The notes under the pieces are model-generated. The model did no database searches. It was not told where the DNA came from and was given only the letters and a program-made list of their open reading frames with translations. A stretch of 64,000 nucleotides of DNA from Caballeronia turbans. GTDB taxonomy: Bacteria > Pseudomonadota > Gammaproteobacteria > Burkholderiales > Burkholderiaceae. Of this stretch, positions 38,626 through 64,000 are shown piece by piece. Positions within the stretch are counted from its first letter, which is position 1. Each line of letters opens with the position of its first letter. The translations under genes and the position numbers were made by a program. Where the stretch lies: NCBI GenBank assembly GCA_001544655.2, contig FCOD02000003.1, positions 124,001-188,000 of the forward strand. Reading direction: 5' to 3'.

Positions 38626-38701
<76 letters not shown>

Positions 38702-38798
38702 ACAGATTCAATCTCATTGATGGGCAAGGCAATCTTGCCCAGATGTCGCCGGTCTTGGCTTGGGTGTCCCGAACAGGTGTCCCAAACCGAGCCGGCCC

Positions 38799-40373
38799 AT
38801 GTCCTTCAGACTCCCCGCCTATCTGCACCGCAACCGCCACGGCATGCTCTATTTCCGGCTGACCGTGCCACCAGACCTGCGTCCTATTGTGGGGCAGGCC
38901 GAGATCTATCGCAGTCTGGGGAGCGCCAGCGTTCGGCTCGCTGCCGACAGGGCGCAGACCCTCAGGATCACGCTGCAGCGTCTATTTTCAGATCTCAGAG
39001 AAGGCGGTAGGCACGACATGAACGGGGAAGCATACAAGGCGCTGCGGGCGTTGCTCGATCAGCGAAAGATCACAGCGCACCACATGGAGCAGCGCGAGGA
39101 GCAGGAATCCCGGATTTCCGCAATAAAATCCGAGCAGTTCCGGATGACGGCCGAGCACGGCCGCGTGCTGGAAGCGGTGCAGAAGGCCCGGCCCTTCGTC
39201 GCCGCCGAGATGACCAAGGCGGGCGACGCAACGGCACCTATCAACACGTCTCCCGTGAAGGCTCGCGCTGCGGGCGTGCCCTTTTCGCGGCTGTTCGAGG
39301 CGTTCTGCCGCTTCAAGGAGGGCGCCGGGGAATGGCGTGACCCAGAGTCCGACCGTCTCTACCGTTACGGTCCCATCGTCAGGGAATTCATCGCGTGTGT
39401 TGGAGACGTCGCCGACGGGTCGCTTGACGCGGGAGTCATCCGGACGTTCAAGCAGACGATACTCGGACGGCCCGATTTCAGCCAGGCGAAGAAGGCGAAG
39501 TATTTCGAGCATATCGGCTCAATCCTGCGATGGGCGCGGATCGAGCAATACGTTCGGGACGATCTGGCCGGCATTCTCAAGATGCCGGCGAAGAAGTCGA
39601 CCGGAGGCTATGAACCTTTCTCCGACGACGATCTCAAGCGTCTTTTTGAATCCGAGGATTACCAAGACGGAACCTTCGTCAAGGCGTCGCAGTTCTGGAT
39701 TCCGCTGATCGGCCTCTACACGGGCGCGCGGATCACCGAGATCGCGCAATTGCACCTGTGCGACATCCGGGAGCAAGATGGCGTTTGGCTCATCGATATC
39801 AACGACGACGACTTGAGAAAGCATTTAAAGTCCGAAAGCGCTACGCGCGCAGTGCCAATCCACCCGGTGCTCATAGGGATTGGGTTGCTTCGTTACCATG
39901 CCGAGGTCAAGGCGGAGGGTTACGACCGGCTATTTCCCGACCTCACACGCACAAATAAAGCGAAGGACAGCTTCGGCGCCGACCCGTCGGAGTTCTTCAC
40001 GGGCTACCGCCGCAGGCTGGGAGTGACCTCGAAGTCCGAAACGTTCGATGCGACCACCAACAAATGGACGGGGCGCGGCACGAAGGTTTTTCACTCGCTA
40101 CGCGACACCGCCAACAGCAAGCTTCGGCACGCCGGTGTGACGCAGGAGCGAAGGGAGCGACTCGTCGGTCACGCGTCGCGCGACGTCAACAATAAGCATT
40201 ACCGGCCGGCGGACATCAATGAGATGTTTCCGCTGTCGCGCCTGCTCGAAGACATCACGAAGCTGGACTATGGCCTGACGCATGCGTCCTACATAGGCAC
40301 GGCGCGCCATCGCCGCGAACGCGTCAAGGGCGCGCAGCGACAGGCGAGGATTGACGCTGCGCCCAGCGCATAG
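38799..40373 (+). CDS. int: Tyrosine-type site-specific integrase
   Basis: This 524-aa recombinase is the expected enzyme for insertion at the adjacent tRNA. Catalytic residues are visible as Arg in YTGARITEIAQL, HxxR in FHSLRDTANSKLR, the second His in VGHASRD and the nucleophile Tyr in NNKHYRPAD. The N-terminus (MSFRLPAYLHRNRHGMLYFRLTVP) is the DUF6538-like start seen in many betaproteobacterial island integrases. ATG 38799 was taken because the frame upstream runs into spacer. Its direction away from the tRNA is normal for such islands. Confidence 0.93.
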   Translation: MSFRLPAYLHRNRHGMLYFRLTVPPDLRPIVGQAEIYRSLGSASVRLAADRAQTLRITLQRLFSDLREGGRHDMNGEAYKALRALLDQRKITAHHMEQREEQESRISAIKSEQFRMTAEHGRVLEAVQKARPFVAAEMTKAGDATAPINTSPVKARAAGVPFSRLFEAFCRFKEGAGEWRDPESDRLYRYGPIVREFIACVGDVADGSLDAGVIRTFKQTILGRPDFSQAKKAKYFEHIGSILRWARIEQYVRDDLAGILKMPAKKSTGGYEPFSDDDLKRLFESEDYQDGTFVKASQFWIPLIGLYTGARITEIAQLHLCDIREQDGVWLIDINDDDLRKHLKSESATRAVPIHPVLIGIGLLRYHAEVKAEGYDRLFPDLTRTNKAKDSFGADPSEFFTGYRRRLGVTSKSETFDATTNKWTGRGTKVFHSLRDTANSKLRHAGVTQERRERLVGHASRDVNNKHYRPADINEMFPLSRLLEDITKLDYGLTHASYIGTARHRRERVKGAQRQARIDAAPSA

Positions 40374-40995: not shown

Positions 40996-41084
40996 TCGTA
41001 TAGTTTCCGAACAGAAGGATCAAACAATGACTTGGCGCGTCGCCGGGTTCGGCGGTGCCGCTCTCCGAGCGAAGGAGGCAAAGC

Positions 41085-42656
41085 GTGATTTGGCCCGCGC
41101 GCGAACGAAAGACAAACGACGAACACGCTGGGCGAGCGCGCGCGGCCGCGTATGTGCGCATGTCGACAGAGCACCAGCAATACTCCACCGAGAATCAACG
41201 TGAGGTTATTAACGCGTTCGCCGAGCTGCGCAATCTCGACATCGTGAGAATCTACGCCGACGAGGGCAAAAGCGGGCTGCGGCTCGACGGGCGCGAGGGC
41301 TTGAAAGCGCTGCTTCAGGACGTGGAATGCGGGCGGGCCGACTACGACTTCGTTTTGGTCTATGACGTGAGCCGCTGGGGACGTTTCCAAGATCCGGACG
41401 AAAGCGCGAGCTACGAGATTCGATGCAAGCAGCGAGGCGTTCGCGTCCTTTATTGCGCGGAGCAATTTGAAAATGACGGCTCGCCGGTTAGCAGCATCAT
41501 CAAGAGCCTCAAGCGCTCGATGGCCGGCGAATACAGCCGCGAGCTCAGTGTAAAGGTCCACGCGGGGCAAACGCGCTTGATCAAAAACGGCTACCGCCAA
41601 GGGGGGCAGGCTGGATATGGGCTCCGCAGAGCGATTGTCGATCACGCCGGAGAAGTGACGGAACTCGCTGCCGGCAAGCACAAGTCCATTCAAACCGATC
41701 GAGTGATTCTGCGCCCCGGTCCAGCGCAAGAGGTGGCTACAGTGCGGGAGATCTACCGCGCATTCGTCGAGGACGGCCGCGTCGAGAGCGAGATTGCCCA
41801 TACTCTGAACGCCTCAGGGGTGCTCACGGACAGAGGGGCTATGTGGACACGCGGCACAGTGCATCAGATCTTGATTAATGAAAAGTATGCAGGGCACAAC
41901 GTTTGGAATCGCGTTTCCTATAAGCTCAAACAAGAGCGAGTGAAGAACCCGCCTGCCGAATGGGTGAGAAAGGACAACGCTTTCGAGCCAATTGTCGATC
42001 AGATCCTGTTCGATGCGGCCCGCCAAATGATCCTTGCGCGTTCTTACCGGCTAAGCGACTCCGACATGCTCGACGCCCTGCGGCGCGCGCTTCGAGAGCA
42101 CGGCTATCTTTCTGGAATAGTCATCGACGAGACGCCGGGCTGCCCGTCGAGCAGCGCATTTCGCGGCCGGTTTGGAAGCCTGCTGCGAACGTATTCGCTC
42201 ATCGGCTATCGCCCGGACCGCGACTACCAGTATGTCGAGATCAACCGACGCTTGCGGGTGATGCATCCCGAAATTGTCCGGCGGGCAAAAGAGGCAATGC
42301 TCGCCGCTGGGGCGTCTATTGAGGCGGACGCGGATACAGGCCTTCTGTGGGTCAACGCCGAGTTCAAGTCCTCACTGGTCCTCTGCCGATGCCGCGCCAC
42401 GTCTGGCGGCGGCCTGCGGTGGATTGTTCGGCTGGACCACGCGCTACGGCCCGATCTCACCGTCGCCGTCCGAATGGAGCCGGACGCTCAAGCCATCCGC
42501 GACTACTACCTCTTGCCGGCATGGGGCATGGGCGAATCGATGCTGCGCATCGGCGAACATAATGAGCGCAGCTTGGAGGCGTATCGCTTTGACGACATGG
42601 AGATGTTGGCCTATCTGGGGCGAAGAGCGCCTTTGCGAGGAGCGTCTTATGGATGA
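41085..42656 (+). CDS. Large serine recombinase (resolvase family)
   Basis: This protein of about 523 aa has the N-terminal resolvase domain with catalytic Ser in YVRMSTEHQQYSTENQ, DEGKSGLRLDGREGL and LVYDVSRWGRFQDPDES. A Recombinase domain follows (GGQAGYGLRRAIVD, VRILINEKYAGHNVWNR-like region near residue 270). Start chosen at GTG 41085 because AAGGAGG lies six bases before it. Two ParB-like genes follow with overlapping ends, so all three are one operon. It may act as an integrase, invertase or resolvase for an element nested in the island. Confidence 0.92.
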   Translation: MIWPARERKTNDEHAGRARAAAYVRMSTEHQQYSTENQREVINAFAELRNLDIVRIYADEGKSGLRLDGREGLKALLQDVECGRADYDFVLVYDVSRWGRFQDPDESASYEIRCKQRGVRVLYCAEQFENDGSPVSSIIKSLKRSMAGEYSRELSVKVHAGQTRLIKNGYRQGGQAGYGLRRAIVDHAGEVTELAAGKHKSIQTDRVILRPGPAQEVATVREIYRAFVEDGRVESEIAHTLNASGVLTDRGAMWTRGTVHQILINEKYAGHNVWNRVSYKLKQERVKNPPAEWVRKDNAFEPIVDQILFDAARQMILARSYRLSDSDMLDALRRALREHGYLSGIVIDETPGCPSSSAFRGRFGSLLRTYSLIGYRPDRDYQYVEINRRLRVMHPEIVRRAKEAMLAAGASIEADADTGLLWVNAEFKSSLVLCRCRATSGGGLRWIVRLDHALRPDLTVAVRMEPDAQAIRDYYLLPAWGMGESMLRIGEHNERSLEAYRFDDMEMLAYLGRRAPLRGASYG

Positions 42657-43566
42657 TGAAACCCAAGAGTTGGGGGCCACGCTGCCCCGTGAGGAACTGA
42701 TCACCTTATTACCGGCGGGGCGCCTTCGGGTCCTGAATCCGCGCACTCGCAACAGCCTTTTCTTCGCTCAACTCGTGGAGAATATCGCCACGGTCGGCTT
42801 GAAGCGCCCAATCACCGTGGCTTTCGGGGGCAACGACGAGGGCGGCCCGTGGCACGAGGTGCTGTGCGGTCAAGGGCGATTTGAGGCGCTGAAATCGCTT
42901 GGCGAGACCATGATCCCGTGTTGCGTGGTCGAGGCGGATCGAGTAGAGCGATTTCTCATCAGTCTGACGGAAAACATCGCAAGGAGACGCCACACGACGG
43001 AGGAGCTTCTCAGCGGCTTGCAGATCCTCAGAGATCGCGGATATACAAGCGAGCAAATCGCGAAGAAGACCAATTTGGATTCGAGCTACATCAACAACAT
43101 CCTGCACTTGTTGGAGAAGGGCGAGCAAAGGCTGCTTCGTGCCGTCGAGAAAAAACAAATCCCAATGTGGGTGGCGCTCGATATCTCGCGCTCGTCAAGC
43201 GATGAGATCCAAGCCGCGATGCTCGCCGCTTATGAGAGCGGGACGCTGAAAGGCGACCAACTCATCAAGGTGCGAAAGCTGATAAGCAAGCGGGAAGCGA
43301 TTGGGAAGGCCTACCACTCCAAGAAACCGATGCCCAAGGACCCGCCCACCCCACAAAAATTGCTTCGAACCTATCAAACCGAGGTTCGACGTCAAAGGCG
43401 GATCGTCCAAAACGCGGCGTTTCAAGAGCAGCGGCTTCTGATGATTACATCGACGTTTCGAAGGCTACTTGCGGACGAGCACTTCCGCACCCTGCTCCGA
43501 GCAGAAGGGATCAAAGACATCCCGCAAGCTCTTGCAAGCCGCATCCCCGAGGATCTACTGCCATGA
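42649..43566 (+). CDS. ParB/RepB-like nuclease-domain protein 1
   Basis: This 305-aa protein has a ParB N-terminal domain (LCGQGRFEALKSLG near residue 75; ENIARR as the ParB box II) and an HTH (YTSEQIAKKTNLDSSYINNIL). The C-terminal half resembles the RepB plasmid-partition family. ATG 42649 overlaps the recombinase stop by 8 bp, and its stop overlaps the next start (ATGA). In this family such proteins accompany a serine recombinase in integrative elements, but no ParA is nearby, so classical partition is unlikely. Confidence 0.85.
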   Translation: MDDETQELGATLPREELITLLPAGRLRVLNPRTRNSLFFAQLVENIATVGLKRPITVAFGGNDEGGPWHEVLCGQGRFEALKSLGETMIPCCVVEADRVERFLISLTENIARRRHTTEELLSGLQILRDRGYTSEQIAKKTNLDSSYINNILHLLEKGEQRLLRAVEKKQIPMWVALDISRSSSDEIQAAMLAAYESGTLKGDQLIKVRKLISKREAIGKAYHSKKPMPKDPPTPQKLLRTYQTEVRRQRRIVQNAAFQEQRLLMITSTFRRLLADEHFRTLLRAEGIKDIPQALASRIPEDLLP

Positions 43567-44462
43567 GCGGCGTCAAGCACGGTTTTGAGCGGCAAATCAT
43601 TGAAGTCCCCATCGCCCTCATCCATATGAGCGCGCCCCTGGGGCCGCGAATCTTGTCGACGCCGAAGTTTCGGACCATTCTTAGCTCCGTGCGAGAGCTG
43701 GGCGTGATTGAGCCTTTGGCTGTTTTTCGATCGGCTGAGAACGCGGGCGAATATTACCTGCTTGACGGGCGCCTTCGGCTTGAAGCGCTCAAAGAATTGA
43801 AAAGACAAACCGCGCCGTGCATGGTCTCGTCTGATGACGAGAGCTACACTTTTAATCGTCACATCAACCGGAGCACAGCCGTTCACGATCATCGAATGAT
43901 CCGGGCGGCTCTGGCCAAGGGAGCTTCGGAAGAGCGCATCGCGGCGACGTTGCAAATGGACGTAAAACGCGTTCGGGAGAAAATTCACTTGCTCGACGGC
44001 ATCGCTCCCGAGGCGGTCTCTTTGCTTAAAGACCGCATGGTGATTCCACGAGTTTTCTCGATCTTGAAAAAGATGAAACCGATGCGGCAAATCGAAGCCT
44101 GCGAAATGATGATCGCGGCGAATCGCTTCACGGCGAGCTACGCTGGGATGCTTCTGGCGACCACGCGCCCCGATGCATTGACGGAGCCTGCGAAAGCGAA
44201 GAAGGGCGGCGAGATCTCGCAAGAGGACCTCGCGCGAATGGAAAGGGAGATGGAGCGGCTGAACCTGGACAGCCAAGCGGCCGAGGAGAGCATCGGAGAC
44301 ACGATGCTCACGCTAGTCGTCGCCAAGGGCTTCACTACGCGACTACTGCGAAACGAGACAATCCATGAACATCTGCGACGGCACCACCCCGACTTGCTGG
44401 CGACACTGGTAGCAACGATGGAGGCGATCGCGGCTGACAGCCGCGGTCCGGAGCGCGAGTAG
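43563..44462 (+). CDS. ParB/RepB-like nuclease-domain protein 2
   Basis: This 299-aa protein is a second ParB-like member, distinct from the first: YYLLDGRLRLEALKEL near residue 75 corresponds to the ParB GxxR motif, RHINRSTAVHDHRMI to box II, and ASEERIAATLQMDVKRVREKI to an HTH. The C-terminal helical domain is RepB-like. The two proteins may form a heteromeric DNA-binding complex, possibly directing the upstream serine recombinase; this is inferred from gene overlap. Confidence 0.82.
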   Translation: MSGVKHGFERQIIEVPIALIHMSAPLGPRILSTPKFRTILSSVRELGVIEPLAVFRSAENAGEYYLLDGRLRLEALKELKRQTAPCMVSSDDESYTFNRHINRSTAVHDHRMIRAALAKGASEERIAATLQMDVKRVREKIHLLDGIAPEAVSLLKDRMVIPRVFSILKKMKPMRQIEACEMMIAANRFTASYAGMLLATTRPDALTEPAKAKKGGEISQEDLARMEREMERLNLDSQAAEESIGDTMLTLVVAKGFTTRLLRNETIHEHLRRHHPDLLATLVATMEAIAADSRGPERE

Positions 44463-51584: not shown

Positions 51585-52466
51585 ATGGCGGGACGCTGGT
51601 CGGAAAAGGACGAAGAGCTAGCGATTTCGCTTTATCTCCGCGATAAGCTGCCAATCCAAGAAATAGCCGCTCGTTTGGGACGCACCGTTAGTTCGGTGCG
51701 CCTGCGCCTATCGAACATGGGCGTCAAACGTGGTTACTGCGTAGGTATAGCATACTGTCCCAACAAGCAGTTCGACGTGAAGGAAGCATGGCTGCGACAA
51801 CGATACGTAGTTGATCTATTGCCGGTGGAGAGCATCGCGCAAAGGGTGGGATGCGGCGCACCAAACATCAGGCGCTTGCTTAAGAAGTGGGAGATCCGCC
51901 GCGGAAAGACGTTCATAAACAGCGGCGCGTCCAAGGTCTGGAACCGCGGACTTGACAAGAATGTCGACGCGAGGCTCAAACAAATCTCAGAGAAGCGGAT
52001 GGGAGATCTAAACCCGATGGCAGGCCGCGAGGCTTGGAACAAGGGTGTTACGGTTGATGACGACCCGCGCGTGCGGAGGATGGTCGACGCTATTCGTTCC
52101 TCGGCATTCACGCCTGAGCATCGAGAGAAAATGGCGCTCGCGAAGCGCGGCAAACGTGGTGCAGATACGAACAACTGGCGCGGTGGCATTTCGTTCACGA
52201 GCCAATACGTGCTGGAAGGCAAGCTGTATCAGCATCGAGTCGTCGCGGAGCGAATACTTGGCAGGGCGCTTCAATCGGGTCAGCACGTTCATCATGTAGA
52301 TCGGGACCGGAGGAACAACGAACCGACTAATTTGCTCGTAATGACTGATAGCGTGCATCTACGGTTGCACGCGGCAATGCGAGCAGAACCAGGATTGGAC
52401 CAACGGTCATGGCTCAGCGAGAATGGCATGCGGTTCGAACAATTGCTTGAACATGATCCGGTTTAG
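51585..52466 (+). CDS. HNH endonuclease with HTH and NUMOD-type motifs
   Basis: This 293-aa protein has an N-terminal Myb/SANT-like helix region (WSEKDEELAISLYLRDKLPIQ), a second HTH (VESIAQRVGCGAPNIRRLLKKW), a NUMOD3-like linker (GDLNPMAGREAWNKG), and a C-terminal HNH nuclease (HRVVAERILGR ... QHVHHVDRDRRNNEPTNLLVM ... HLRLHA). This domain order is that of free-standing homing endonucleases of phages. Catalytic His are in VHHVD. It probably came with the phage remnant; the target site is unknown. Confidence 0.85.
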   Translation: MAGRWSEKDEELAISLYLRDKLPIQEIAARLGRTVSSVRLRLSNMGVKRGYCVGIAYCPNKQFDVKEAWLRQRYVVDLLPVESIAQRVGCGAPNIRRLLKKWEIRRGKTFINSGASKVWNRGLDKNVDARLKQISEKRMGDLNPMAGREAWNKGVTVDDDPRVRRMVDAIRSSAFTPEHREKMALAKRGKRGADTNNWRGGISFTSQYVLEGKLYQHRVVAERILGRALQSGQHVHHVDRDRRNNEPTNLLVMTDSVHLRLHAAMRAEPGLDQRSWLSENGMRFEQLLEHDPV

Positions 52467-55726: not shown

Positions 55727-56617
55727 TCAACTCCGAGGGGTGATTCCTTTTTGCTCATCGTCGACGGCTCTCATCAAGTCGTATTCGTTAGGATGCCACA
55801 AGTCAAGATTAACTGTTGCGCGCCTAAGGTTGACTACATTCAGAGTCGCATCGGAGATAATGCGCAAAAACGCAAGGTCGAAATCCGTGATCTTTCCACG
55901 CGGAAGCGTCACCAACCACTGTTGTCGATTAATAACAAAAGCTGCGAAATCAGCCAGCTGAATCAAAGGAAATTCTTTTGAATCCCTCGAATAGATCATT
56001 TGGCCCGCAAAAGCAGTGGGATTGCTAACCGCTTCCCGAATAGCTATTGACCTTGAGTCTTTCCACTTCTCGCTCTCATCAAGGACAACATGAACAGGTG
56101 CGGGAATTTGATTGCTCCGGTTGGAAACATAGTCTTGGATGTGGACCAGGAGCATCCATAAGGCAAGTTCATCATGCTTCCGCAAATCAATTGGGCCCAG
56201 TTTTTGCTGAAACTGATGATCAGAGAATGCTTTCGCTCCGATGGGGTCTAGCGTTTGAAAGAATATTGGATATTGATATTCGGAAAAAATATGTGACAAG
56301 AATGCGACCGCCGCAAGTCGTTTCTGAGCAGAAACGCCCTTAAACGATTTGTGACCACGATAAATGTCGGTCATGTGGAACTCGTCGCCGCCACAGAGTT
56401 CCGTAAGTTTCCTGATAGCCAGGGGCAGTTCTTTTGCTGCGGTTGCAAATTGAGCTGGTGAAAAGATAACGGCCGCCCATGATTTGCGCTGTGGGTGCAG
56501 ATATTTCGATCCTGTGGATTGTCCGGGATTTCCGGTCTCATCGATGACCACACACGAAGTTCCTGCGCGGAGCACCTCGTCGATCGTCAGCGAGTATTGA
56601 TTCACGTATGTTTTCAT
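55727..56617 (-). CDS. DUF3800 domain protein
   Basis: This 296-aa protein has the DUF3800 hallmarks: CVVIDETGNPGQSTGS near residue 22 with a conserved acidic Asp/Glu, VHVVLDESEKW near 175 and IQLADFAAFVINRQQW near 220. The family is predicted to have an RNase H-like fold and is frequent near defence genes and mobile elements. It lies downstream of the DUF499 gene on the same strand, separated by a probable terminator, so it may be an independent accessory gene of the same defence locus. Activity is not demonstrated. Confidence 0.8.
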   Translation of the reverse strand: MKTYVNQYSLTIDEVLRAGTSCVVIDETGNPGQSTGSKYLHPQRKSWAAVIFSPAQFATAAKELPLAIRKLTELCGGDEFHMTDIYRGHKSFKGVSAQKRLAAVAFLSHIFSEYQYPIFFQTLDPIGAKAFSDHQFQQKLGPIDLRKHDELALWMLLVHIQDYVSNRSNQIPAPVHVVLDESEKWKDSRSIAIREAVSNPTAFAGQMIYSRDSKEFPLIQLADFAAFVINRQQWLVTLPRGKITDFDLAFLRIISDATLNVVNLRRATVNLDLWHPNEYDLMRAVDDEQKGITPRS

Positions 56618-56686
56618 ACTTTTTCTTCTTTCCGCTACGGCCGGAGTCGTCTGTCAATGCGAGGCATACACAGCGAATACTCAAGA

Positions 56687-56716
56687 CGGGATGCGCTGAT
56701 TGTTCAGGGCATCCCG
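56687..56716 (-). terminator. Probable terminator between DUF499 and DUF3800 genes
   Basis: CGGGATGC (56687-56694) pairs with GCATCCCG (56709-56716). On the minus strand the stem lies 12 bp after the DUF499 stop; the following bases TCTTG are only a weak U-run, so termination may be partial. Confidence 0.5.
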
Positions 56717-56727
56717 CTTTGACTTAA

Positions 56728-59634
56728 TCATTCTTCAAAGTCTTTATTAACGAAATTGAGTTGTGTGCAATTTTCCCGGACCGCGCGTTGGAGGTTTTCG
56801 TCAAATTGGCCCTCAGTTTCGGCGCTGATTTCAATGGACACGCGAACCGTGGTGTCAGAGCGGCTGGCAAAAAGCATCAACACCTCATCGACGATTTCGC
56901 CAAATTCGAACCGCGCCCGCGCTGCGTCCAGGTTGACGGTTCCGAAGAAGCGGCGTTTTTGCGTGGAGGCCGGCGTAATTTGCTCACCGCCGTCTGGGTG
57001 CGTCGTCGAGTCATTCCCCGTCTTGCCGACGGTGCCGGACGAGGAGGAACCGGCGTCGGGTTCAGTGGCTTGCCCACCCGTTTGCCCTCCGGTGGTCTTG
57101 CCCGCGAGTTGCGCGGCTGCTTCCTCCGCGGCTTTCACGCGCGCGGCCTCTTCCTCGGCCAATTTGGCCGCGAACGCCGCGGCCGCTTGCGGCTCGATCA
57201 GTAGCAGCGTCTCGTCCAGGATGGGTGTCGTGGCCTTGCCGAACGAGAAGCCGGAGTAACGCCCGTCGTCTTGGCCGTAGGCGCAACCGAAGAAATCGCG
57301 CGCGCCCGCGCCGGCGGCGATGGTGGTCCGCAAAACCTCCGAATCGCGCAGCCGAGGGAGGTAGAGATAAGAGCAGCTCTTTTGCCAGACGTCGAGCGCG
57401 GACACTTCCACCGCCCCGTCCTTCCAAAACCAGCTGCGCATCATATTGGCCAAGTGGATTGGCGACCACTGCGTGATCAGAAGCTCGTTTTCTCTGAGGA
57501 GGCGCTCGATCTCTTGGGTGCGGTTCACGGCCGCCGGGTTGATTTGGAAATGCTCCCAGGCGACCTCGCTGACCCCGCTGCCGGGCGCGGCCTGTTGCAT
57601 CGGCGCGAGCAGCCATTTGTAGCATTCTTTGACCATGTGGCTGAGCGCCTCGGCCGCCGATTCAAGGCTTTTTTGTGCTTGCTTCGATTGCAGCTGGTCT
57701 AGGTTCAGCCGCGCTTCCTTGACATCCGCAACAATGCTTTGCCAAGCGAGGGTAGATCGAACCTGGTCTTTGAGGCGGCCTACGCTGTCGGCGTCCGCCG
57801 CGAGGAAAATCAGCCGGTTCTGCTTTTGCCGAGGCTGTTCGCCACGATTTTTCAAAATGTCAGTGGCGCGCTCGATGCCGGGGGCGCTCGCTGAGGGACT
57901 AAATCCCGCGGCCGGCGGCAGCACGACCAGTCGCAGCGACCAATCGTCGGGTATGTCGGCGCTGTGAGTAAAAACGTGGATGCCCGCGAATAGGCCGGGC
58001 GCAAACCGCAGCTTTTCGCGGATCACCGGCAGCACGTCGTCGTGGTCGTTGAAACGGCGCTTGCGGTCCTCCATTTCGCGCCGTAAGTTGGGTCGCGTGT
58101 CAAACCAATAGCGGTTGTTCGCGCTGTTGAGATATTGAAGCTTGTCGACAATGGCGCGAACGCCGTCCTTGTAATGCCCGATCACTTCGCGGGGTTGCGC
58201 GGCGCCCAGAAGCAGCCTTTCGAGTTCGAGCCCGCGATGGTGCTTGGCACCGCCGACGGTGCCCGCGTCCGGCGCGCTGCCCAAAAAGATCGTGCGAGCG
58301 AGGCGCCGGCAGGCCTGGATAGCGCCGAAAATGGGCTTGTGGCTGTCCATTTCGGTGGTGGCCGCGCGCTCCCCGTCGATATCGCGCTCCAACACGGGGT
58401 CCCAGCCCGGTGCCAAGTGATAAATCGCCTCGTTGCGGGTGTCCGCGTCGTAAAGCGGCAGGCTGGCAGGCTGAATCAACAGGTCGTTGTTGCCGTCTTT
58501 CCACAGCCGATGAATCGCCTTGGCCATGAATTTGAGCACACCGCGCGTCCGCTGAAAATTGTCGAGTGACGACCAGTCCTCATATAGCCGGTCGAAGACC
58601 TCCGGATGGATTGGATAGGCGCGCTTCAAGCGTTCGAGATAATGGCTGTCGCGGCTTTCGGGCGGAAAGTCGCCGCCGTTGGCCGCATACAGGTCCGCGT
58701 AGGCTCGGCACACCTCTTCGGCCGCGAGGCGGTCGTTGATGTCAGCGAAGAGGCGGCGACGCACGATCTCGAACGCCTCCTCGGTTGCAACGGGCTTCCA
58801 GAGCGCTTGCACGCGGCCAAAGTAATGTGACAGGGCGGCCAGCGCAGCCGCGCCCTTCTCACTGCCCGCTTCCTTCTCCGATTCCGGCAGGGAGGCCAAA
58901 AGCACCGCATTGGGCACCGCTTTCACGGCCTCGGTCAGGGCCTGGACGAAGGACAAGTTGGAGTCGAAGCTCCCGCCCGACACCGACTTCCCCTCGTCGA
59001 ACTGCCGCACATAAGCCACGAGCTCGTCGATGAGAATGACGCACGGTGCGTGTTGGGCCAAAAGTTGCGCGAGCACCTCCTTGCCGGGCGATGTGCCGCT
59101 CTCGTCGGCGCCCCTCACCTGCGCATACGCTTCGGCGCCGCCGAGCTGCCACGCGAGTTCGCCCCAAACTGTGTTTACATTGACGGCGTCGGCGCCTTTG
59201 CCGCGCCGCTGCGGTTGATTGGGCGACAAACGAATGCCATCCAACACGGCGATCCGCGCCTGGGGCAGCTCGGCGACGCCCGCCGCATCCAAGATGGGCG
59301 GAATGCCTTGCAGCGAGCTGGCGCTTCGCTCGCCCTTGGCCAGGTGATAGACGGCGAGCATGGTGTGGGTTTTGCCGCCGCCAAACGCCGTTTGCAGTTG
59401 GATGACGGGGTCGCCGCCGTTGCGGGTCAACCGTTTGACCACTGAATCGAGCAAAAGGCGCATGCCTTCCGTGACGAAGGTGCGCTGAAAAAACAGCTCC
59501 GGGTCCTGATACTCGGGCGACGCGGAGCCTTCGTGAACCCGCGAGATGTCGGCGGCAAACTCGGCTTGTTGGAAGGTGCCCTTCAAAACGTCTTCGTGCG
59601 GGACGGCAATTGCGCGCCAGTTTTTCAAGCTCAT
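56728..59634 (-). CDS. Anti-phage-associated DUF499 ATPase
   Basis: This protein of about 968 aa is a large P-loop ATPase. Walker A is [10 protein letters not shown] near residue 85 and Walker B is [15 protein letters not shown] near 205. The region [18 protein letters not shown] and [16 protein letters not shown] is typical of DUF499 and of BrxC/PglY-like proteins of BREX systems. A low-complexity linker (Ala/Glu/Gly/Thr) near residues 830-905 separates a C-terminal domain. ATG 59634 ([10 protein letters not shown]) is preferred over TTG 59658. It starts 14 bp after the DUF1156 stop. It probably powers the defence complex. Confidence 0.9.
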
Positions 59635-59647
59635 GTTGGTTTTTCGC

Positions 59648-62506
59648 TCACAAATCAAATTGCGTTTGGGAGCCTACGGGCCCCGCTTCGTGCGCCGCGG
59701 CCTCGACGCCCAACCAAGAAGTGATCAACGCGTTGTAGCCGCGCGCCTCGTCCGCCCAGCTCTTGCGCTCGCATAGGGTGTAAAGGCGATAAGCCAAGCT
59801 GCGAATGCGTTCCGCCGATTCGGGCAGCCGCGCGAGGACGCGGCCCGCCGAGGTCTCGCCGTCCGATTGCAGGGCTCGAATCATTTGATGCAGCGCTTCC
59901 CACACCGGCGTTCGATTGTCGTGCTCGGGTGACCAATCGCTGGGGTATTCGCTCGTTTTGAGCAAGCGGACCCGCCCGCTGGCCGCCTCGATCACCCCGG
60001 CGTCGCGCACCCCGTCAACCGAGGTGCCCTTGGCTCTTGCCAAGACATCAGCCTTCCCAAACTCGCCCGCGGCCCAGCCCATTTCATCGAACCACGACAA
60101 GCAAAAATGCGTATCGGCGTCGAATTCATCGCCCCCTTCCGTTAGGACACGGTTGATGAGGGTGAGCGCGGTGTGCACGGACATGCGGCTGCCGTCGGCT
60201 TCCAAGACCGCCGCATATTTGGAGAACACGGCCATGCCCGGGCCGATCACGGCTTGTGCCAGATCGACGGGAGCCACGGGCGAGATGCCCTCCGAACCGC
60301 CGATCATCACCTCGACCGCTTCGCGCAGTTCGTCTTTGAGTTCGCGCAAAAAATCACGACGAGAAATCGTTGCCGCGTCGCGCTCGCGTTGCCGACAGAC
60401 CAGCACGATGCTGGACGCCAGCGCGTTGGTGCCCCGGCCGATCATCCGGTTGCCCAATTCCGTGCGCATCGGCCAGGTTCCGGTAATAGAAAATCCGGCC
60501 GTGAGGACCGCATCGAGGAACGTTTCCCATCCGGTGTTGCCCGTGCCGATGTCGGTGGTGTCGGATTGTTTGAAGGCGTAATAGATGGTCGTGGGAAACG
60601 CCGGGTGCGCATCCTCAGCCAAGCGCCGCATCGCCTCGGTCATCCCGCCGAGGAAAAATTGCTCGGCGGCGTCTTTGCCGCCGTGGCGGTAGGGCGTCGC
60701 GACGAGCTCTTCAACTTTAGGGGCGGCCATGCCGGAGAACAGTTCCGGCAGCACGGTCCGCAGCGTTCGCCGAAGCCAAACATAGAAAAAGTCCGACAGG
60801 TCCGCGTAGCCGATGTTGTCGTAATACGGCGGATCGGTCGTCACGATCTTTCCCGCGCTGATTGACTGCGTTGAGGCGTCCTGCTGCATGGCTTGCCCGC
60901 CCGCGCGCGCCGGCAGCCGCTCGACGACTTTGGCCACCCACTCCACGTTATTCATCCAATTGCCACTGGACTCGGAGAAGGGGTTTCCCTCAGCAAAATC
61001 CCATGTCATCGGCAAAGCCTGGCGCGCAAATGTGTTTCGCAGCGCCTCCATTTTGGGGCTGTTGTCCCACGAGCAAATGGTGGATCCTCGATCGACCGAG
61101 CGGCTTAGCGCAAACGACAAGTAGACGGCGATGGCCTCCCCATAAGCCGTGGCGCCGACGCCGCCCTCCGCGAGGCGGCGCTCGTCGTCTGCCACTCCGG
61201 CGCGGATTGCGTCCTGCCTCGCTTTGGCCGGAAGCTCCTGAACGAGCTCGGAGAGGGTGTTCAGCGCCACCAGCTGGCGCGCGGTGAACAGATCACTGAA
61301 CTTTGTGATGCCGTATCCGACGGTCCAAAAAGCTCGAGGGTCGTCCGGCAGCGCCGTCTGGGGGCTCCACGTGGCTTCCGCGCTGTTCGCCAGCGCTTCG
61401 TCCTCCGGCGTGGGCGGGAGGTATATTCGACCCCGCGGCCCTTCGGCGACGATGGCCATCAGCCTTTGGCCCATGTGGCCGGCCACGCCTTCGGCCTTGA
61501 TATACGCCGGCGAGATTGGGGAGTCGGACAAAATGCACCTAAAGTTCGCGCCTCGCGCGAGCTTGGTGCCGGTTTTGAGATGCTCGGGCGGGACGCCAGC
61601 TTTGATTTCAAAACGGTAGTCGCCGCCGCTAATGATCGGCTCGACATACGTCGCCTTTGTGGGCTTCGCCGACAGCACAAAGCTCGACGCGAGCGGAACG
61701 CGCGTCGACGAGAAGGCCGGGTTGGGGCTTCTGACGGTTCGGACCCACAGCCATGCGATGACCGTCGCTTCGCCCCCTCCGTTCTCTTTGGGGAGGCGAA
61801 CCTTTGGGTAGAGACGGCCAATGCGCGCGTGAGCTTGCTCGCGAACCCATGCGCCATAGCGGCGAACATCCTCGGCCAACCCTTGCGCCGCCCGATATCC
61901 AAGCGTCCGACTTTGGCCGCCTTGCGCCGGCTCCCCCACGGGCTCACGGTCCGCGAAACGCGGCGGAAACTCGATCATTGCTTTGTTGATCAGCGCGGCG
62001 ACTGGATTCAAATCGGACGCAAAGCTTTCGAGTCCGAGGCGCTGGGCTTCGAGCGGCAAGGCCCCGCCTCCTGCGAAGGGGTCGTGCGTCGCTGGCAGGC
62101 GAGAGGCATCGAAGAGCTCGGCCGCCTGAGGATGATTGCGGTTCAGCGCGCAGGTTTCACGCCAACTCTTCCATATTTCCTCCCGCGCTTCGTTGAGAAT
62201 CTCTTCGTTGCCCGAGTTTTCCCAAAGCACCAGCCGGCGGATCAAGTTGAAAAGTCGCTCCCGTTCCTCCTGAGCCTTTTCTTTATTCACGCCACGCTGC
62301 ATCGAGCGCTCAAAGCCGGGGTCATTGACCATCTGCGCAAAGATAACGGCCCGGGCGGCCGCCAGGGGGCGACGCGCCCACCAAAGGTGAAGCGTGGACG
62401 GATGCCCGTGGCGGATCGATTTCTCGCGAGCGGCCGCGGCGTTGATGTCGTCGAGCGGCAGCGCGACTTCGATGAGTTTTTTCGGTTTCTTAATGGGCGT
62501 GGTCAT
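59648..62506 (-). CDS. DUF1156 DNA methyltransferase
   Basis: This 952-aa protein has the DUF1156 N-terminus ([20 protein letters not shown] ... [20 protein letters not shown]), the SAM-binding motif [18 protein letters not shown] near residue 142 and the catalytic motif [21 protein letters not shown] near 560. DPPY indicates adenine-N6 or cytosine-N4 methylation. In the defence role it may mark host DNA, as in BREX/DISARM-type systems; the recognition site cannot be read. It lies between the DUF499 gene and the small protein gene, all tightly packed. Confidence 0.92.
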
Positions 62507-62514
62507 CTAAACCT

Positions 62515-63036
62515 TCAAAAATCGTCATACAGGGACTCGTCATGGACGAGCCGTTGGCCGACTGCATGCAGCGCGCCGCGCGTGAGCGACTCAAAGATCG
62601 GGCTGGAATAGCCGTCGGCCCAGCGTTCGGCACGCAAAAGCGTGTGGACGTGGTGTCGCAATTCGAAAAAGGACCATGAGCCCACCGACTCCTCGACGCG
62701 TTCGCCTGGCTCGACCGTCGGTCCGCTCGGCGCGAAGTCCGTGCACACAAATCCGCAGGCATAGGTTCCTTCGACGAACAGCCGGTATTCCGGCAACGCG
62801 AAAAATTCCTCGTAGCGATCGAGGGGCAACCACTCGCGACTCGGCGTTGAAAAGTGGCGTAGCGCAGCCTTTTCCAAATGGTCGATCAGAAGCGCCAGCG
62901 CTCGCGCCTGGTATTCGTTGACCGCGCTGCGTTTGCTCGCCGGCCGCCTGCGGATACGCTGTTGACGAAGGCCCGTCGCGAGCGCGGGCGACTGCGCCGT
63001 CAATTCGTTGCTGTCCGTTTCACGCTCGGCGTTCAT
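62515..63036 (-). CDS. Uncharacterised small protein of the defence operon
   Basis: This 173-aa protein has a basic N-terminal stretch ([13 protein letters not shown] near residue 24), then [20 protein letters not shown] and a C-terminal part [20 protein letters not shown] followed by [20 protein letters not shown]. The C-terminal pattern (LR..V..LLRAER..GY..) is reminiscent of DUF6508-type domains; this is a weak visual match. It overlaps the helicase stop (ATGA) and ends 8 bp before the methyltransferase start, so it is a true operon member. Its role is unknown. Confidence 0.8.
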
Positions 63037-64000
63037 TCTCGGCCTCGGGCGCCTTTGCGCAATTTGGCGATGTCATAGTTGACACTGGTGGTCCCCCAAT
63101 CCGGCTCGCGCTGAAAAGGGTTTTGGATGTAAAGCGGAGGTTCCGCTGTCTCTCCGTCCACCATCACGATCGCCAAGAAAAATTTGTCGCCTTGGTTGAG
63201 GCCCTGAATGATCTCGTTGCTCGTGACGGTGATCGTCGTTTGGCCTTTGGCGCGCCCTTTGACTTCGATATGCCGGGGCTCAGACGTTGCGCCGTTGACC
63301 GCGGGCGGCTGAGAGGTGATGTCCCACCCAATGCACTGCGCGGACACGTCCTTAGTGGCGTTTCCCAACGCGTGCTCGGCGTCGAACACTGCTTGCATGG
63401 CGATCCGCTCGACGCGGCTGCGCGCCGCGGCGTCCACGGCCCAGGCCACGGTTTCCTCGGTCGGTTGTCGCTCGGCCCACAAAGCGGCCGGCAGCACGAG
63501 GGCGCCGCCGACGACCAAGGGCGTCGACGACACCACTTGCCGCATCGCCCGCAGCTCGCGCTCGCGGCTTTCCCGACGGGCGGTCAGCTCGTCGATTGTG
63601 CGCCGGACATTCTCCAACGGCAGCCGCGCGTCTTTGCCGGCCGCAAGATCCGCTTTGAGCTTGCTGTGCCGCTCCGACCAATGGTCGATCTCTTTGACCA
63701 GGCGCTCGTGAACGGCCGCCAACGTTTTGTCGACTTGCTGCTCTCGCCGTTGACGCGTCTCGGCCAAGTGCTCCGGCAACAGTTGCGTGGCCGCGTGCGC
63801 GATCGCTCGCGCTTCCAAATCGCGTTGAATCCAGGGCTGCGCCAGCACGTCTTGAACGCGCGCGCGGCCGGCGTCATCGATCGGAACCAAGTCCAAATGC
63901 GGCGCCCAACCGGCATTAGAAACAGCGCCCTGGGCATCGAGATAAACGAAGTGCAGGCGACGGGAAATGACGCGCTCGTCGGGCCCCGCCTCTTTGATGG
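63033..64000 (-). CDS. Defence helicase with C-terminal DUF3883 domain (5' part outside window)
   Basis: About 322 C-terminal codons are present; the frame is open to the window edge. A helical region ([20 protein letters not shown] ... [14 protein letters not shown]) leads to the DUF3883 domain: GWDITSQPP near the end, [20 protein letters not shown] with the Glu/Lys of a PD-(D/E)xK-like core, and [14 protein letters not shown]. Large SNF2 helicases with this tail are the usual partner of DUF1156 and DUF499. The helicase motifs themselves are beyond the window, so that part is inferred. Confidence 0.8.

Follow-up and report, generated by a model that had tools for sequence, protein, structure and literature searches.

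Which system does the minus-strand operon at the right end of this DNA belong to, and how could it act on incoming DNA? The stretch analysed, called here the window, is 64,000 nucleotides of Caballeronia turbans and corresponds to positions 124001-188000 of a 457-kb contig (FCOD02000003.1) in a genome of 7.35 Mb. A sequence-only reading had placed a DUF499 ATPase, a DUF1156 methyltransferase with a DPPY motif and a DUF3883-tailed helicase in one minus-strand operon on a mobile island. This arrangement was recovered with Pfam (E = 6e-26, 1.9e-31 and 1.1e-19, respectively, the last for the portion of the helicase that lies in the window) and by the tight spacing of the genes, and the near full-length PADLOC matches of the three core proteins identify the operon as Hma (Type-1 BREX-related). 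It is probable that the locus is a restriction-modification-like defence operon, carried with an accessory gene, X, on a 29.4-kb tRNA-Ala(CGC) island; its activities, the protection against phages and the role of X are predictions.

The hma operon and its predicted activities

The helicase gene, hmaA, runs past the end of the window. Extension upstream, as the sequence-only reading had advised, gave the complete gene: the next stretch of the same contig (L002) carries it at L002:9033-12545, equivalent to 63033-66545 in window numbering, and it encodes 1170 amino acids (aa). In the order of transcription, hmaA is followed by a 173-aa open reading frame (ORF), X, which had been overlooked, and then by hmaB (DUF1156 methylase) and hmaC (DUF499 ATPase).

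63033-64000, minus strand: 3' part of hmaA, 321 of 1170 codons inside the window (PADLOC HmaA; Pfam Helicase_C, SNF2-rel_dom and NOV_C)
63258-63323, minus strand: D1075 (GWDI) to E1094-x-K1096 (EVK), predicted PD-(D/E)XK site of HmaA (conservation, AlphaFold model, fold comparison)
62515-63036, minus strand: accessory ORF X, 173 aa, DUF6508-like at best, between hmaA and hmaB (coordinates, relatives)
59648-62506, minus strand: hmaB, DUF1156 DNA methyltransferase, 952 aa (PADLOC HmaB; Pfam DUF1156)
60824-60835, minus strand: DPPY motif of HmaB, residues 558-561 (alignment)
56728-59634, minus strand: hmaC, DUF499 AAA+ ATPase, 968 aa from the likely ATG (PADLOC HmaC; alignment)
59368-59382, minus strand: Walker A (GGGKT) of HmaC (alignment)

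According to coordinates and sequence, the hmaA stop and the X start overlap by 4 bases (ATGA), X and hmaB are 8 bases apart, and 13 bases separate hmaB from the likely hmaC start, so that the four genes form one tightly coupled operon. The listed hmaC ORF (56728-59658, minus strand, 976 aa) opens with a TTG at 59658, and the ATG at 59634 is the more likely start because the PADLOC HmaC model begins at residue 9.

The PADLOC search that had been recommended gave 1913.7 bits for HmaA (PDLC00659, residues 1-1166), 1588.8 bits for HmaB (PDLC00660, residues 1-951) and 1458.9 bits for HmaC (PDLC00662, residues 9-976). All three genes lie in one operon on one strand, with one extra gene between hmaA and hmaB. 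The anti-phage association that had been proposed is therefore retained as far as the defence-type operon is concerned, but not as the NCBIfam 'anti-phage-associated' set, whose models score far under their cut-offs (DUF499, 187 of 1200; DUF1156, 120.9 of 1000; phospholipase D (PLD), 169.1 of 1100). The operon also presents the Type-1 BREX-related features: a DUF499 ATPase with Walker motifs, a methylase with an N-terminal DUF1156, and a Swi2/Snf2 helicase with a C-terminal PD-(D/E)XK domain, the last from the fold of a predicted model. The sequence-only reading had advised to look upstream for any PLD or DUF3780 gene: Pfam matched neither of these, nor PglZ, in the 15 distinct proteins scanned, which come from the operon and the closest flanking DNA.

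Concerning HmaA, full-length Pfam matches to Helicase_C, SNF2-rel_dom and NOV_C describe a Swi2/Snf2 helicase, with conserved helicase motifs, joined to a C-terminal NOV_C/DUF3883 nuclease-like domain. NOV_C was matched in 14/14 sequences, and the nuclease-site residues D1075, E1094 and K1096 do not vary in 14/14 relatives. The AlphaFold model of this domain has a pLDDT (predicted local distance difference test) of about 90 over residues 81-200 and resembles Hjc, the SPARDA nuclease, NhoI and PvuII in fold comparison (Foldseek). Hence, the HmaA tail is modelled as a PD-(D/E)XK nuclease, and cleavage is its predicted activity. The fusion of DUF3883 to a SNF2 helicase was already named a novel restriction endonuclease (REase) in 2013 (PMC3710099, available part). 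Searches with the helicase tail run directly on viral contigs gave no match.

In HmaB, DUF1156 is N-terminal and the DPPY motif is kept in 16/16 aligned proteins. HmaB would most likely be an N6-adenine methyltransferase; no match to HmaB was found in phage records at E 1e-30. Walker A is present in the 13/13 correctly framed HmaC rows of the alignment, where the HmaC of the window has no N-terminal HEPN extension.

The mechanism, which had been described as not worked out, has in fact been proposed in print: the available text of PMC12839542 defines the Type-1 BREX-related systems by a DUF499 ATPase, a DUF1156 N6-methylase and a Swi2/Snf2 helicase with an active C-terminal PD-(D/E)XK, proposes a restriction-modification-like working for them, and states that auxiliary nucleases are often near or inside the locus. 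For antiphage activity of the nuclease-helicase it refers to Liu et al. 2024 (Microb Biotechnol 17:e14524). Our proposal follows that restriction-like model, to which the nuclease-domain model and the conservation of the motifs are added here. HmaB would mark the host DNA, HmaC may build or license a recognition complex, and the Swi2/Snf2 motor of HmaA would translocate on unmarked incoming DNA, which its C-terminal domain would cut. X could be an accessory at the hmaA-hmaB junction, a place that commonly holds an additional gene in Hma operons.

Several points weigh against this proposal. The model of the nuclease domain was built from 8 sequences; only six Foldseek matches reach E ≤ 0.001 (best 3.9e-4), and the query-normalised TM-scores range from 0.23 to 0.39 over the 50 comparisons shown. 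Moreover, the methylated base is disputed, HmaB being an m5C enzyme in the available text of PMC8565338 and an N6 enzyme in that of PMC12839542. Finally, X was found in no other Hma locus examined, so that the system in general can do without it.

A BREX-like block without cutting could also be considered, in which phage DNA replication is stopped, self is marked by methylation, and the nuclease-like domain has a regulatory or structural role. The likeness to BREX and DISARM parts noted by the sequence-only reading is real, since HmaA also matches DrmD (399.5 bits) and BrxHI|BrxHII (316.5 bits) in PADLOC, and the available part of PMC12839542 ties the family to BREX. However, the invariant D, E and K, the PD-(D/E)XK model and the lack of PglZ among the 15 proteins scanned make this block quite unlikely, and the restriction-like proposal is preferred.

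It would be less likely still that the operon is a decayed or silent passenger that has lost its function and is carried along by the island. A scan of L002:12300-13200 for sigma-70-like promoters found 0 against 0.2 expected in shuffles, which agrees with silence but is weak evidence either way. Against decay, none of the four reading frames is interrupted, and the motifs are in place.

Two features follow the operon downstream. The hairpin is a possible terminator, without a clear T-run, and the neighbouring DUF3800 protein, which has no PADLOC match, is not counted in the system.

56681-56722, minus strand: hairpin 3' of hmaC, -26 kcal/mol, z -5.7 (folding energy and z)
55727-56617, minus strand: DUF3800 protein, 296 aa, directly downstream (Pfam DUF3800, E = 3e-06)

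The island at tRNA-Ala

The mobile island that had been proposed is supported in two ways: the tRNA-Ala target has an adjoining integrase gene and is copied over 71 nt at the opposite end, and relatives have empty sites.

38626-38701, plus strand: tRNA-Ala (CGC), integration target
38760-40373, plus strand: integrase gene adjoining tRNA-Ala (PHROG integrase, E = 9.6e-23)

A copy of the final 71 bases of the tRNA, differing from them at one position, lies at L002:13996-14066 (67996-68066 in window numbering), and the span between tRNA and copy gives the length of the island; an AlpA-like gene (L002:13053-13712) lies near this far end. The 1-kb flanks were searched in 41 genomes of the genus, with coordinates read by eye. 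They are contiguous, that is, an empty site, in seven (G001, G012, G014, G018, G021, G030 and G800) and 11-54 kb apart on one contig in 11 (G000, which is the genome of the window, G004, G005, G007, G009, G011, G022, G023, G029, G799 and G802); in the other 23 the arrangement was not resolvable. tRNA-Ala(CGC) is thus an integration site in the genus.

HmaC was found in five of the 61 genomes searched; 37 of the 61 belong to the genus, and they account for four of the five. Three of these four genus copies of Hma (G000, G016 and G017) lie beside tRNA-Ala-derived attachment (att) sequences: the G016 copy has a whole tRNA-Ala on one side and a 43-bp copy on the other, and that of G017 is beside a 45-bp copy with the right flank at once after it and the left end on another contig. 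As their HmaA is only 51% and 33% identical to that of the window, the G016 and G017 copies look like separate arrivals, and that three copies only distantly alike lie beside such sequences makes these places worth a search for further defence cargo. The idea that all genus copies occupy the tRNA-Ala site was dropped, given that the G006 copy (L013, G006:C52:1-16000; HmaA 61% identical) is elsewhere, beside a tRNA-Lys place, synteny with the chromosome of the window breaking just before tRNA-Lys.

The GC content at 58001-64000, which includes most of the hma operon, is 62.5-63% and chromosome-like, and that of the rest of the island in the window is 52-61%, as if the operon had joined the island separately. 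Other cargo of the island comprises a recombinase (integrase/invertase PHROG matches), two proteins resembling ParB and a helix-turn-helix-containing HNH endonuclease (window 41055-44462 and 51585-52466).

Gene X and the hmaA-hmaB junction

X has no PADLOC or NCBIfam match, and its best Pfam match up to E 1 (Phage_Gp84, E = 0.15) was taken as chance. When 84,980 species genomes were scanned for short peptide patterns, a single relative came up, 61% identical, in Paraburkholderia ginsengiterrae (L009). Its neighbours are mostly metabolic, no hma gene occurs in its 16.5-kb stretch, and it weakly matches DUF6508 (PF20118) along its length (E = 0.0015; 18.8 of 23.6 bits, under the cut-off). X itself has no match to DUF6508 up to E 1, and a search for this domain gave 0 matches over the cut-off in 61 genomes and one in 299; the name is not mentioned in the literature searched. 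A profile of X and the L009 relative, run on 58 genomes of the genus, added a third member in G030 (L071:9579-10523; E = 3e-32, 41% identical), within a 314-aa ORF with a longer C-terminus than X. It is located 5.9 kb from dndB, with dndC beyond and a transposase and other ORFs between, and on its other side there is a TPR-repeat gene with weak STAND/AAA matches. The three members differ in context (an hma operon, the vicinity of dnd, neither of the two), and the link to defence is suggestive only.

Across 399 genomes of the order, X was strongly matched only in the genome of the window. Weak matches (E = 3.1e-4 and 4.7e-4) appeared in G235 and G416 (L011 and L012), X being rematched in L011 only (E = 3e-5), and another weak match appeared in L017 in searches of other loci. 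A two-sequence hidden Markov model (HMM) of X run over the ORFs of L001-L058 gave nothing better than E 0.028 besides the copies of the window itself and L009; tblastn gave nothing at E 1e-3 in L061-L069, and plasmids gave nothing by tblastn or, as DNA, by blastn. A match in a viral contig (L044, 33%) was judged chance because the complementary strand carries a 730-aa ORF at this place. Searches by Pfam, the two-sequence HMM and tblastn did not support X as a DUF3780 protein or as a homologue of other junction genes. The AlphaFold model of X, from 2 sequences, has a mean pLDDT of 48.2 and is too poor for a fold search.

The junction that holds X was compared in Hma loci drawn from relatives and phylum searches, from 14 of 65 plasmid records and from 9 viral contigs. 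Of 48 loci, 30 show the hmaA 3' end and the hmaB 5' start on one strand; the other 18 were left out, one (L051) with the helicase on the opposite strand and 17 without one of the two gene ends in the available DNA. The order helicase-methylase-ATPase on one strand was seen in 11/12 annotated plasmid stretches (L051 has the inverted helicase; L046 and L053 are unannotated), and all three genes were seen in 6/9 viral-contig loci. The hmaA-hmaB gap is below 200 bases in 14 of the 30 junctions and at least 400 in 16, and 14 of these large gaps, including that of the window, hold a same-strand ORF of at least 60 aa, which alone can be chance; L046 and L062 hold none.

The content of the junction is variable in the loci sampled, and Hma operons often carry an extra gene there. 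Where annotation was lacking, names were assigned by eye: a 211-aa NYN-like protein (L019 and L020), a DUF4145-like protein (L025), a 345-aa protein (L039), an AAA ATPase with HNH (L048), an AAA-like gene with a 310-aa ORF (L069), DUF29/AAA/DUF4435 (L050), large ATPase or ATPase-like genes (L052 and L067) and unknown proteins (L053, L056, L057 and L064); in L051 a Fic gene precedes hmaB. The hmaB-hmaC gap exceeds 650 in 6 of the 27 loci with hmaC seen (L019, L020, L046, L050, L057 and L066), a rough comparison in which about 510 bases were allowed for a HEPN fusion. The sample is search-driven and not independent (L019 and L020 are near-copies). No correlation between HEPN-less HmaC and junction content was seen by eye among the loci examined.

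Other observations were made in these loci. Large genes lie upstream of hmaB in three of them (L067:3791-8020, L032:30-1502 and L052:2294-6517, the last annotated 'ATPase'). Those of L067 and L032 share the stretch SPRHILSELLQNADDAG, which we take to be reminiscent of sacsin/NO VEIN proteins. A viral-contig operon has two tandem HmaB-like genes of 943 and 777 aa (L066:5592-10763). Between hmaB and hmaC, L019 and L020 (4392-5086) carry a small gene pair that resembles VapBC by eye, and a 'four helix bundle protein' is found in a cyanobacterial and a Chloroflexota plasmid (L050:9389-9757 and L057:9566-9934).

Instead of being an exchangeable accessory, X might be a core fourth subunit that this Hma lineage requires, such as a DUF3780-like reader or a STAND-like sensor that is inactive. 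It is tightly coupled in translation on both sides and occupies the place of the extra genes of other Hma operons. Nevertheless, tblastn and HMM searches over ORFs did not find it in any of the other 29 loci whose junction is readable, although a very diverged X could be missed; the L009 relative has no hma nearby, and DUF3780 is not matched. A core role is thus unlikely, and X is better regarded as an accessory that entered the junction and that may act as regulator, sensor or backup effector. A more tentative idea, which we hold as possible but doubtful, is that auxiliary defence genes are swapped in at the junction and that X founds an undescribed defence-linked family attaching to DNA-modification systems (Hma here, near dndBC in another genome of the genus), as a small sensor or backup effector answering the loss or inhibition of the DNA mark.

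Comparison with known systems

The DISARM and BREX systems share with this operon a related Swi2/Snf2 helicase (DrmD and BrxHI/HII), but no other DISARM or BREX gene is present among the proteins scanned, and HmaA reaches 371 of 610 bits with the NCBIfam DrmD model. Type-3 BREX-related systems have PglZ and iSTAND genes, the latter described as fast-evolving; no PglZ was matched in the 15 proteins scanned, which come from the operon and the adjacent DNA. The NCBIfam DUF499/DUF1156/phospholipase D set (compare Type-2 BREX-related in the available text of PMC12839542) has homologous ATPase, methylase and helicase parts. However, the full-length HmaA carries NOV_C as its nuclease-like domain and not PLD/HKD, and DUF3780 was not found, X included.

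The Type-1 BREX-related systems, as judged from the available text of PMC12839542, share the DUF499 ATPase, the DUF1156 methylase and the Swi2/Snf2 helicase with C-terminal PD-(D/E)XK, and the proteins scanned here likewise include no DUF3780 or PglZ. The ATPase of that family is described with an N-terminal TUDOR, an inactive REase and C-terminal RRM domains. The differences are the HmaC without the N-terminal HEPN found in 1370/2446 Type-1 taxa, and gene X, which gives no Pfam match to any nuclease class that the paper names (section 35, part 1). Auxiliary nucleases inside loci are reported there without singling out the hmaA-hmaB junction.

Hma itself appears in the available text of PMC8565338 as a candidate three-gene system with 1,638 instances in 26 phyla and an m5C-type HmaB, and the cloning passage names three other systems and not Hma. 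The 173-aa gene between hmaA and hmaB departs from the three-gene operon described there. An unnamed guess at defence thus becomes a firm Hma assignment, with an argument from predicted structure added for the nuclease reading of DUF3883/NOV_C, and the small gene X and the variable junction inside the operon are singled out as the parts worth following. With Hma the locus shares three proteins that match near full length and the same three functions joined in one operon.

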